DNA from: Patescibacteria group bacterium
GTDB taxonomy: Bacteria > Patescibacteriota > Patescibacteriia > 2-12-FULL-60-25
DNA length: 50,631 nucleotides
Assembly (NCBI GenBank): GCA_028715505.1
Contig: JAQURS010000007.1
Coordinates: 1 to 50,631, forward strand
Direction: 5' to 3'
Position 1 is the stretch's first letter. Each line of letters begins with the position of its first letter. Shown piece after piece: positions 18,188 through 20,760 of this stretch. Position numbers and translations under genes: made by a program. The notes beneath the pieces are model-generated. The model had not been told where the DNA came from, made no database searches, and was given only the letters and a program-made list of their open reading frames with translations.

Positions 18188-18700
18188 ATGAAACCTGAAG
18201 GAATGAAAAAACCACCGTCGCTTTTCCATGGATCGTCGTCACATGATATCGAGACTCTTGAACCAAGAAATAAAACCCACCGAAGCCCAGAGGAAGGACC
18301 TGTTATTTTCGCGACTCCAAATATTGGGCTTGCTTCGATTTTCATGATGGAAACAGATGACAGTTGGACGAGTATTGGCACAATCGATGGCACACCTCAT
18401 GTCGTTATCAACATGGATCAAGCGGAATTCGCAACCAAGGATAAAGGCGGAACAATATACGAACTACCTAATCACACGTTCACCACTGATCCGGAACGAG
18501 GCATGGGCACTAAAGAATGGACCAGCCAAGAGCCCGTCAAGCCGATAAGGTCAATCCATTACGAGTCATGTTTGGATGCCATGAAGCAAAATGGCGTGCA
18601 AGTATTTTTTGTTACCTCAGACATTTTTAAGCGATTGAAAGAAGCACCTAATGGCGATGAAAAAGTTAAAATTATTAAAACGCTGACACCAGAAAAATGA
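18188..18700 (+). CDS. Unknown protein with LFHGSS motif
   Basis: A 170-residue soluble protein, not recognised with confidence. The N-terminus has LFHGSSSHDIETLEPR, followed by a GPVIFATPN strand and alternating beta segments. HGS/HGT near the N-terminus, an ATP.. or ASP.. strand and a later Glu/Asp-rich part recall the ADP-ribosyltransferase/KptA-like fold, but the catalytic Glu cannot be fixed by eye. It is the first of three same-strand genes (next the GrpB fusion and a deaminase) and is more A/T-rich than the ribosomal and envelope genes. The ATG lies 20 bases past the methyltransferase stop. Confidence 0.65.
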   Translation: MKPEGMKKPPSLFHGSSSHDIETLEPRNKTHRSPEEGPVIFATPNIGLASIFMMETDDSWTSIGTIDGTPHVVINMDQAEFATKDKGGTIYELPNHTFTTDPERGMGTKEWTSQEPVKPIRSIHYESCLDAMKQNGVQVFFVTSDIFKRLKEAPNGDEKVKIIKTLTPEK

Positions 18701-18741
18701 ATTTCTAAAATTTAGAATCCTTATTACATAACTGCAACTGA

Positions 18742-20256
18742 ATGCTCGGCCTTAAACGCGGTACAGTCAAGCTCTGCGAATTCCATGATGAATGGGCTGA
18801 ATTTTACGAGCAGGAAAAACAATTACTCAAAAACGTTTTTGGCGATAAAATTATAGACATGGAGCACATCGGCAGCACGGCTATCCCCGGCGTTCCCGCC
18901 AAGCCGATTATAGACATTAACGCGGCCATCAAATCACTCGACAAAGAAACAGTGGATGAATTCATCGAACCGCTCCAAAAACTCGGCTATGCCTACATGC
19001 ATGAATACCCGAATAGAAAATTCTTCGTTAAAGGCCCTGAGGAAAAGCGAACTCATCATCTCAACCTTGTGGAAGTGGGCAACCAAACCGATTGGCACGA
19101 TAAAATTCTATTCAGGGATTATTTGAATAGCCATCAAGAAGCGCGGGATGAATATGGAAAATTAAAATTGGATCTGGCTTCAAAATTCGCGGATGACCGT
19201 GAGTCGTACACGAAAGCGAAAGAGGGATTTATACAAAAGATAATTTGGATGGCCCGAGATAAAGTCGTAGTTAATCAAAAACAATGCGAATTAATAGCCG
19301 ACCGACTTCGGCCATTACGCTTCAGGCGGGAACATTTCAAACGGCCATTTCTGACTTTTAAATCGGATGCTGAAACAAAACTGCGGGCTTTCCTTTTTGC
19401 GTCGGCTATTTGCCATCAGACGCACACTTTGATTTATCGAAAGAAAAATTTAAAAGGGTGGGGTTGCCTTGAAGATACTTACACAATTTTGGGCGAAGCT
19501 AATTCTCCCCTACTCGATCCTGAATATTTATCTAAGTTATCGGCAAGCGAGCTGAGTGAACTGCTCAAACCGATCTTTACTGAGGACGGAAGTCCAGAAA
19601 ACTGTACGCTTGATCGGCTGGATGAAAGGTCTGCTTTTCTGATTAATATTTCTCAACAATTAAAAGAAAACTACGACGGAAAAGTTTCTAATCTGCTTGC
19701 CGAATCGAACGGCTACCTGATCAATAACGGTTCTGGCTTATACGAACTCCTTGAAGAAATAGACGGATTTGCCGATCCGCTCAAGAAGAAAAGCACAGTC
19801 TTCGTTCAATTAGTAAAAAATGCCAATTTAATCCAGATTAAAGATCCAGAGTCAATCGAGCCCGTCATGGACTACCACATGCAACGGCTCATGCTCCGGA
19901 CAGGTTGCATTGAAGTCAAAGATGAAGAATTGAAACGAGCCTTGCTCGAAAGACAAAAATTAGAATCTGATAGCGACGTTCGTCTGGCCTCCGTCGAAGC
20001 AGTCAGGCTTATGGGCAAACTGGCTCAAAAAGATTTTTTTGAGATGGACGAACTTCTTTGGTCACTTTCCCGCAGTTGTTGCCACGAAAAACCTCTTTGC
20101 ACGGCTGGCCATTGCACTAAAACTCCTTGTACCTTTTTTACTTTTATCGATTTACAGGGGCATGAGCGATGTATCTTTGACGGGATTTGCTCCGGCCAAA
20201 ACGATGAATCCTACCGCAAATATTGGCAGCCGGTAGTTGAGACTAACTATTATTGA
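18742..20256 (+). CDS. GrpB-like nucleotidyltransferase fused to HhH-GPD-like, Cys-cluster domain
   Basis: A 504-residue two-part protein. Residues 1-175 are a GrpB/UPF0157 nucleotidyltransferase-like domain (HIGSTAIPGVPAKPIIDI at 42-59, then HHLNLV), normally a stand-alone protein of this length. Residues about 190-504 look like a DNA or nucleoside N-glycosylase of the HhH-GPD type: a hairpin-like LLEEIDGFADPLKKKS, then PVMDYHMQRLMLRTG, where Asp377 fits the catalytic Asp. A C-terminal Cys cluster (446, 447, 453, 458, 463, 477, 483) may hold an iron-sulfur cluster or zinc. The spacing is not the classical C-x6-C-x2-C-x5-C. Queuosine-salvage glycosylases share this fold and are an alternative. 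The deaminase gene follows after three bases. Confidence 0.75.
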   Translation: MLGLKRGTVKLCEFHDEWAEFYEQEKQLLKNVFGDKIIDMEHIGSTAIPGVPAKPIIDINAAIKSLDKETVDEFIEPLQKLGYAYMHEYPNRKFFVKGPEEKRTHHLNLVEVGNQTDWHDKILFRDYLNSHQEARDEYGKLKLDLASKFADDRESYTKAKEGFIQKIIWMARDKVVVNQKQCELIADRLRPLRFRREHFKRPFLTFKSDAETKLRAFLFASAICHQTHTLIYRKKNLKGWGCLEDTYTILGEANSPLLDPEYLSKLSASELSELLKPIFTEDGSPENCTLDRLDERSAFLINISQQLKENYDGKVSNLLAESNGYLINNGSGLYELLEEIDGFADPLKKKSTVFVQLVKNANLIQIKDPESIEPVMDYHMQRLMLRTGCIEVKDEELKRALLERQKLESDSDVRLASVEAVRLMGKLAQKDFFEMDELLWSLSRSCCHEKPLCTAGHCTKTPCTFFTFIDLQGHERCIFDGICSGQNDESYRKYWQPVVETNYY

Positions 20257-20259
20257 TAT

Positions 20260-20760
20260 ATGACCGACGAAGTATTCATGCGAGAGGCGTTGGAAGAAGC
20301 CGCCATCTCTCAACAAAGTGGCGACTGGCCAATAGGCTGCGTCATTGAACTGGACGGCAAAATAATTGCCAAAACGCACAATCAAGTTTACTCGACAACT
20401 GACAAGCTGGCCCATGCCGAAATGTTAGCCTTAAGGCAAGTGCAAGGAATCTTAAAAGACCATAAAGGCGAAGCTACTTTGTATACGACGTACGAACCCT
20501 GTCCGATGTGCTTTGGAGCCGCCATCCTGAGTCGCATTAAAAGAGTCATCTGTGGAATTGATTTGGACAACAGCGGGGCCATGCATTTCCGCGACAACCT
20601 GCCTCTTTTATTCAAACAAGACAAATTCGCCGTAGAATTCACGACTGGCGTATTAGCTGACGATTGTTACGAAATTTTTATCAAAGGCGAACCGACTAAA
20701 AAATTATTGGAGAACGGCTTGATTAGAAAGAAAAGTGATTTAGAAAGAATGGATATATAG
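20260..20760 (+). CDS. Zinc-dependent nucleobase/nucleoside deaminase
   Basis: A 166-residue member of the cytidine deaminase-like superfamily. The HAE motif (His52-Glu54) and PCPMC (Cys81, Cys84) give the zinc site and catalytic Glu. The N-terminal MREALEEA and THNQV, and the absence of a long insertion, are closest to the TadA/guanine deaminase branch, but the substrate cannot be decided from sequence. It starts three bases after the GrpB-glycosylase fusion, so the two are surely co-expressed. A deaminase next to a predicted base glycosylase suggests nucleobase salvage, editing or repair (inference). Confidence 0.9.
   Translation: MTDEVFMREALEEAAISQQSGDWPIGCVIELDGKIIAKTHNQVYSTTDKLAHAEMLALRQVQGILKDHKGEATLYTTYEPCPMCFGAAILSRIKRVICGIDLDNSGAMHFRDNLPLLFKQDKFAVEFTTGVLADDCYEIFIKGEPTKKLLENGLIRKKSDLERMDI

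Follow-up and report, generated by a model that had tools for sequence, protein, structure and literature searches.

What reaction is catalysed by the C-terminal part of a fused gene in a Patescibacteria genome, and does it act together with the two genes that flank it? The gene lies in a stretch of 50,631 nucleotides (contig JAQURS010000007.1 of assembly GCA_028715505.1), here called the window, from a genome of 1.07 Mb that is 97% complete. It is the middle one of three open reading frames (ORFs), which encode a small protein termed HGS, a fusion of a GrpB-like domain with a second domain, and a deaminase. An earlier note, made from the letters of the sequence, read the second domain as an HhH-GPD-like glycosylase and placed the three genes in one undescribed nucleobase or nucleotide pathway. 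Here residues 173-504 of the fusion are read, with a probability of roughly 0.6, as an N-glycosidase for nucleotides (or nucleosides) that is of the Fe-S type, belongs to the HhH-GPD superfamily and is sister to the queuosine-5′-phosphate glycosidase Qng1. The computed results are the homology and fold of the domain, the alignment of its catalytic residues, the conservation of its Cys and the gene neighbourhoods; from these we infer the activity, the Fe-S cluster, the substrate and the roles of neighbours.

Homology, fold and family of the probable glycosidase domain

The Pfam model PF10343 (Q_salvage) matches residues 227-443 of the fusion at 33-34.8 bits, against a cut-off of 25. It is matched at E ≤ 1 by 61 of the 68 aligned family members and stays below the cut-off in members L041 (23.7 bits) and L046 (15.5 bits). 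A single-sequence phmmer search of the PDB sequences with the glycosidase domain gave no match. With a profile of 68 relatives the best matches to PDB sequences are chains of Qng1/DUF2419 (human Qng1, 7ugk, E 0.0064; bacterial entries, 0.015-0.18), and a profile-profile alignment to seven canonical Qng1 proteins of Patescibacteria reaches a probability of 98.5% (E 2.3e-15). The glycosidase domain is a remote relative of the Q_salvage family.

The AlphaFold2 model of the domain, built from the 68-row alignment, has a mean predicted local distance difference test score (pLDDT) of 96.2 and a predicted template modelling score of 0.93. Eleven Qng1 chains rank first in a Foldseek search (1e-9 to 2e-8; TM 0.66 for the top one), and VIA-align gives Z scores of 26.6-27.6 for seven Qng1 entries, the best at 2.6 Å over 274 residues. 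AGOG, Endonuclease III and MutY follow at Z 15.7 or less. In a viral-structure library the best match is only the Endonuclease III of a haloarchaeal virus (E 3.2e-3). Structures of the Qng1 (DUF2419, Q_salvage) glycosidase (7u07, 7u91, 7ulc, 7u5a) were reportedly described by Hung et al. in 2023.

Structure prediction with Foldseek, the check named in the earlier note, found the glycosylase-type HhH-GPD-like fold in the C-terminal part, and not its absence. The glycosylase call was right because the fold matches Qng1 and then the Fe-S HhH-GPD glycosylases, and because Asp377 aligns with the D231N site of Qng1. What it missed is the closest relative, Qng1/PF10343. The glycosylase reading stands, sharpened to a Cys-rich, probably Fe-S, family of Qng1-like nucleotide/nucleoside glycosidases.

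This family is apparently undescribed, judging by a literature search of partial coverage. Its 68 aligned members come mostly from Bacteroidales metagenome-assembled genomes (MAGs), with a few from Patescibacteria and archaea. The alignment excludes L016 (a near-copy of the window), L042 (masked bases), L004 and L065 (truncated), L084 (broken frame), L012-L015 (canonical or fragments) and duplicates. Counts made on 66 rows exclude L011, L012, L013, L004, L056, L084, L076 and L078 (divergent, canonical, truncated or broken), and also the duplicates or fragments L009, L015, L017, L065 and L081. Domain matches occur in four of 96 relatives (G000, G001, G055 and G031, the G031 gene being cut by contig ends) and in six of 379 genomes of the phylum, three of them of this type (G000, G221, G343) and three canonical Qng1 by motif (G193, G389, G404). 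A scan of species genomes gave 69 loci, mostly from Bacteroidales MAGs and two of them archaeal; it picks up genomes by two peptide patterns alone and gives no measure of how common the family is. In the tree the family is a single group, separate from four canonical proteins (100/100). The window protein groups with those of G001, G055, G221, a micrarchaeote and two further rows. L011 sits on a very long branch and its placement is unsure.

Active site, substrate pocket and cysteine tail

Residue roles of Qng1 were taken from alignments and from PDB titles, which name the mutants K199C and D231N of bacterial Qng1. The motifs that had been picked out in the fusion, HIGSTAIPG, LLEEIDGFADPLKKKS and PVMDYHMQR, are all present, and the Asp of the last one is residue 377. 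It aligns with D231 of Qng1 in hmmsearch and with the matching canonical Asp in all three MAFFT modes, which supports its naming as candidate catalytic residue; by these alignments it is likely the catalytic Asp. Lys349 aligns with K199 in hmmsearch, and with the matching canonical Lys in two of three MAFFT modes. Asp377 (alignment Asp207), the Tyr, His379 (His209) and Arg382 (Arg212) are invariant in the 68-row alignment; with the conserved Cys described below, this places the pattern beyond chance.

The family shares with Qng1 the overall fold over about 274 residues, the PF10343 match, an aligned catalytic Asp, less surely the Lys, and the conserved Arg of an E-R motif. It differs in its seven-Cys tail, in its gene neighbours, and in two motifs: D-Y-H-x-x-R is found at the position of A-D-Y-K-x-P-Q, and C-H-Q-T where canonical Qng1 has N-F-C-x-W. 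The latter stretch, as N-F-C/S-x-W, is kept in seven aligned canonical proteins (once as S-F-S-Y-W). Because C-H-Q-T stands in its place, the substrate pocket probably differs from that of canonical Qng1.

This replacement bears on the explanation that the domain is a true queuine-salvage enzyme with the Qng1 function, freeing queuine from queuosine (Q)-5′-phosphate for TGT. Qng1 is indeed the closest match in both fold and sequence family, TGT is present in the window genome, and canonical Patescibacteria Qng1 genes also adjoin NUDIX-like genes, which recalls the NUDIX part of the L016 fusion described below. However QueA is found in the window genome, in G001, G031 and G055, and in three Bacteroidales genomes tested, so that Q can be completed from preQ1 and queuine is not needed. 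Since the window genome has QueA as well as TGT, it can finish tRNA queuosine without salvaged queuine, and for this reason queuine salvage is held to be unlikely. The exception is the member genome G221 (87% complete), which has no QueA match and where the explanation stays alive. Among the genomes with canonical Qng1, TGT is accompanied by no QueA match in three of five examined for QueA (G130, G311, G193). In addition, no TGT gene was recognised among the recurrent neighbours of Bacteroidota members. It should be noted that TGT is found in 17 of 22 genomes tested, and TGT alone does not separate the explanations. The substrate in the window genome is probably not queuosine.

The canonical Qng1 loci L110, L112 and L113 (G115, G170, G311) have NUDIX-like neighbours, and two are near small deoxyribosyltransferase-like genes, as judged by eye; another canonical locus, L111, adjoins a TGT gene. 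Because G170, G322 and G273 have Qng1 without a TGT match, canonical Qng1 may have another substrate there.

The seven Cys in the last 62 residues of the fusion (446, 447, 453, 458, 463, 477 and 483) are conserved without exception in the 67 or 68 rows with a residue at the position, and H474 is kept in 67 of 68. The tail resembles the loop of Endonuclease III, in support of the earlier suggestion of an Fe-S loop, whereas seven canonical Patescibacteria Qng1 proteins have at most one Cys in their last 70 residues. The spacing is CC-x5-C-x4-C-x4-C in 67 of 68 rows. In the divergent L011 it is CC-x6-C-x2-C-x4-C, which comes closer to the loop of Endonuclease III (C-x6-C-x2-C-x5-C in the Bacteroidales genomes of the set). 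This divergent member with its Endonuclease III-like loop occurs as L011 and L122 (G343), both cut by contig ends. The family thus shows a mixture of Qng1 features and features of the HhH-GPD glycosylases with Fe-S clusters.

An alternative is a base-excision glycosylase of the Endonuclease III/MutY/AGOG kind, acting on DNA or RNA. The fold is the same (Z about 15), and the D-x-H-x-x-R motif, present in 68 of 68 members, is also found in three Endonuclease III-like proteins (from G001 and two Bacteroidales genomes), as is a Cys loop of similar kind. The Pfam AGOG model gives a weak match in 6 of 68 members, and PF00730 (HhH-GPD) matches 4 of 68 at E ≤ 1, the best at 0.027, which is not significant. 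But Qng1 is matched far better (Z 27.6 versus 15.7), the Cys spacing is another, and the N-terminal half is of the Q_salvage type. The Endonuclease III-type G-x-G hairpin before the catalytic Asp, which grips DNA in that family, is found in none of the 68 members. The neighbours are metabolic, and a separate HhH-GPD gene is present in all five member genomes tested. Little weight is given to a base-excision role.

Gene neighbourhoods and possible substrates

Neighbours were counted at 62 loci with Bacteroidota or Chlorobiota titles, 600 bp being present upstream in 55 and downstream in 58. Within 600 bp, 15 loci have a xanthine-dehydrogenase-like gene upstream and 13 an SsnA-like aminohydrolase gene downstream; either is found in 21 loci and both in 7. 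A 5′-nucleotidase-like neighbour occurs in 3 of the 62. Members linked to xanthine dehydrogenase (XDH) are spread over several separate tree groups. All five dehydrogenases scanned pass the curated cut-off for selenium-dependent XDH. For the three aminohydrolases scanned SsnA is the best-scoring model, yet all are below its cut-off. D-hydantoinase is above cut-off in both cases scanned (L041, L026), and YgfK in four of seven Bacteroidales genomes tested.

The anaerobic reductive urate pathway comprises XdhD, YgfK, SsnA and HyuA (PMC12507026, in the part available). Judged by these model matches, the Bacteroidales neighbours together with YgfK make up much of that gene set: there the genes next to family members encode selenium-type XDH, SsnA-like proteins and hydantoinase, and those genomes contain YgfK. 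Unlike this, the available part of PMC12507026 names no glycosidase of such kind, nor Bacteroidota among the phyla for SsnA, and the window gene has no gene of that cluster beside it. Urate-degradation-type clusters (selenium-type XDH, SsnA-like, hydantoinase and two pyridoxal-phosphate enzymes) were observed at the Bacteroidales loci L026, L041, L042 and L052. The glycosidase was also considered as a substitute for YgfK in these purine clusters and rejected, YgfK passing in three of four genomes with the XDH context (G457, G458, G459); the fourth, G456, scores 794 bits against a cut-off of 835.

Other members have other nucleotide-related neighbours. The copy of G055 (L081, Patescibacteria) lies within a run of dTMP/dNTP genes, with dCTP-deaminase-like, dCMP-deaminase-like and thymidylate-/thymidine-kinase-like neighbours (the kinases by eye). 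The gene after L011 is Nuc_deoxyrib_tr-like (nucleoside 2-deoxyribosyltransferase), a weak match below cut-off.

A mechanism can be proposed for the Qng1-like N-glycosidase. The substrate, most likely a nucleoside 5′-monophosphate, would be bound where Qng1 binds queuosine-5′-phosphate. Asp377, aided by Lys349, would stabilise or attack C1′ as the base departs, and the products would be a free base and a sugar phosphate. The Cys446-Cys463 loop would carry a [4Fe-4S] cluster with a structural role, like that of Endonuclease III. In Bacteroidota the released base may feed anaerobic purine (urate-type) breakdown, and the window lineage may hand the base or nucleotide on to the neighbouring deaminase, for nucleotide salvage or clean-up.

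Several observations weigh against this reading. The domain is only 17-19% identical in sequence to solved Qng1, and Lys349 does not fall on K199 in hhalign or in the third MAFFT mode. The Cys spacing in 67 of 68 rows departs from that of Endonuclease III, so zinc or disulphides are possible in place of the Fe-S cluster. Neither purine gene lies within 600 bp in 41 of the 62 Bacteroidota/Chlorobiota loci, and other recurrent neighbours, a CoA-binding protein (13 of 62) and HIT (11 of 62), are not purine-specific. No member with a reported activity or a measured cluster was found in the literature searched.

A wider scheme is only tentative, and we hold it at well below even odds. Here the family would be a third HhH-GPD branch, of Fe-S nucleotide glycosidases with the Endonuclease III-type Asp-His-Arg motif and cluster loop, the DNA-gripping hairpin having been lost, and it would be ancestral to Qng1 or share an ancestor with it. 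Bacteroidota would use it to turn purine nucleotides into the free base for selenium-dependent XDH/YgfK/SsnA, and Patescibacteria would have captured the gene and joined GrpB, NUDIX and deaminase parts to it for clean-up.

Should the N-glycosidase reading be true, a family that shares features with both would connect DNA-repair glycosylases with a vitamin-salvage enzyme, and an entry enzyme would be proposed for anaerobic purine (urate) breakdown in Bacteroidota. The likely automatic annotation “queuosine salvage protein” would be corrected.

The GrpB domain, the HGS protein and the deaminase

The three genes are on the same strand with tight spacing, as had been described, and this holds to the base: the gaps are 41 bases (HGS to fusion) and 3 bases (fusion to deaminase). 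Ribosomal L10/L12-like genes lie upstream and a UMP-kinase-like gene downstream, the sequences being judged by eye.

Table 1. Positions in the window of the three genes and of the domains and motifs of the fusion.
Feature	Position	Strand	Basis or remark
HGS protein, 170 aa	18188..18700	+	DUF6886-like, below cut-off; possibly Arr-like ADP-ribosyltransferase fold (weak)
Fusion ORF, 504 aa	18742..20256	+	
GrpB (UPF0157) domain, residues 1-171	18742..19254	+	PF04229; best PDB match 2nrk
Qng1/Q_salvage-like glycosidase domain, residues 173-504	19258..20253	+	PF10343, fold, profile comparison
C-H-Q-T motif, residues 224-227	19411..19422	+	in place of canonical Qng1 N-F-C-x-W stretch
Lys349-Lys350	19786..19791	+	aligned with Lys199-Arg200 of solved Qng1 (mutant K199C, 7u5a) in 2 of 3 MAFFT modes
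D377-Y-H-M-Q-R382, candidate catalytic Asp377	19870..19887	+	aligned with Asp231 of Qng1 (mutant D231N, 7ulc); resembles Endonuclease III D-x-H-x-x-R
Cys-rich tail, C446 C447 C453 C458 C463 H474 C477 C483	20077..20190	+	putative [4Fe-4S] loop and second Cys/His group
TadA/nucleobase-type deaminase, 166 aa	20260..20760	+	PF00383; TadA model below cut-off; PDB matches 7cph, 7dbf

The GrpB-like domain is confirmed by PF04229 (residues 9-167, 4.3e-46, 157.4 bits against a cut-off of 25.5), and its match to 2nrk, a GrpB structure, has an E value of 1e-26. The deaminase carries the HAE and PCPMC motifs seen earlier. It matches PF00383 (2.4e-23, 82.4 bits against a cut-off of 25), reaches 89.9 bits with the NCBIfam TadA model, below the cut-off of 150, and matches TadA (7cph) at 90 bits and guanosine deaminase (7dbf) at 74.5 bits in the PDB. 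The HGS protein scores 24.2 bits with PF21820 (DUF6886), below the cut-off of 27. Its model has a pLDDT of 66.5, and the fold search gave nothing below E 0.001; in a fold comparison three Arr entries are found at weak Z scores of 2.1-2.9 among 18 rows, none of them at the top.

Could the three genes work as a single dedicated system, for example for defence or tRNA base exchange? The tight spacing is in favour, and in G001, a sister species in the same genus, the deaminase also adjoins the glycosidase gene. Only two of nine genomes of the genus have a close homologue of the deaminase, and the same two have the glycosidase domain. However, at the G001 locus both the GrpB domain and the HGS gene are missing. 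The slot in the chromosome, between a methyltransferase-like gene and the UMP-kinase-like gene, is common to the window and G001. The downstream part of this slot is also found in L016, a 6.8-kb contig that is titled Omnitrophota, has 91-97% DNA identity to the window and is probably mis-binned. There the end of an HGS gene is followed by a GrpB-NUDIX-glycosidase fusion (250-2163) and directly by the UMP-kinase-like gene, without an adjoining deaminase. Close homologues of the deaminase (at least 70% identical) are found in 3 of 96 relatives with the window included, two beside the glycosidase and one, 71% identical in G090, without it. HGS matches come to 3 of 57 with the window included, and HGS homologues in G016 and G041 occur in genomes that have no match to the glycosidase domain. 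Among the 62 Bacteroidota/Chlorobiota loci GrpB, the HGS gene and the window-type deaminase are not among the neighbour clusters common to several loci. Thus the conserved three-gene pathway of the earlier note did not hold up in relatives, and a dedicated system is improbable. Both GrpB and HGS are lineage-specific, and only in the window genus is the deaminase paired with the glycosidase.

A defence system, one of the roles suggested earlier, was rejected as weak. No PADLOC model matched the fusion or HGS, and the deaminase reached only 24.3 bits, to part of a dCTPase. With the glycosidase domain and the HGS protein as queries, no match turned up among viral contigs, phages or plasmids. Least probable of all is a role without catalysis, as a metal-binding or regulatory protein in purine or CoA metabolism, which the CoA-binding and HIT neighbours would suit, but which does not accord with an invariant Asp, His and Arg and a near-invariant Lys at or near the active-site positions of Qng1.

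GrpB may be a lineage-specific add-on, either nucleotidyltransferase-like or a folding aid. The latter role is reported, in the available part of PMC2765170, for the GrpB (UPF0157) domain of a CoaE protein of Mycobacterium tuberculosis. There too GrpB is fused to an enzyme of another family, but the partner domain and the position are different, GrpB being N-terminal in the window. The HGS-end/GrpB stretch of L016 is 97.4% identical to the window and the glycosidase stretch 92.5%, as if the former part had moved recently.

GrpB is also found with other partners. In G041 (L101:5090-6622) it ends a 510-aa ORF whose earlier parts are ASCH-like and soluble inorganic pyrophosphatase-like, as judged by eye, and about 600 bp upstream is an HGS homologue; with a pyrophosphatase as partner, a nucleotidyltransferase role of GrpB would make sense. 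In G050 (L005:1495-2604) a GrpB gene 58% identical to that of the window adjoins a HIT-like gene (by eye), and in 11 Bacteroidota loci the glycosidase gene, too, is followed by a HIT gene. The window genome itself has a second, stand-alone GrpB gene on contig C1 (L105:2823-3344), between kinase-like and tryptophanyl-tRNA-synthetase-like genes and with NUDIX nearby.

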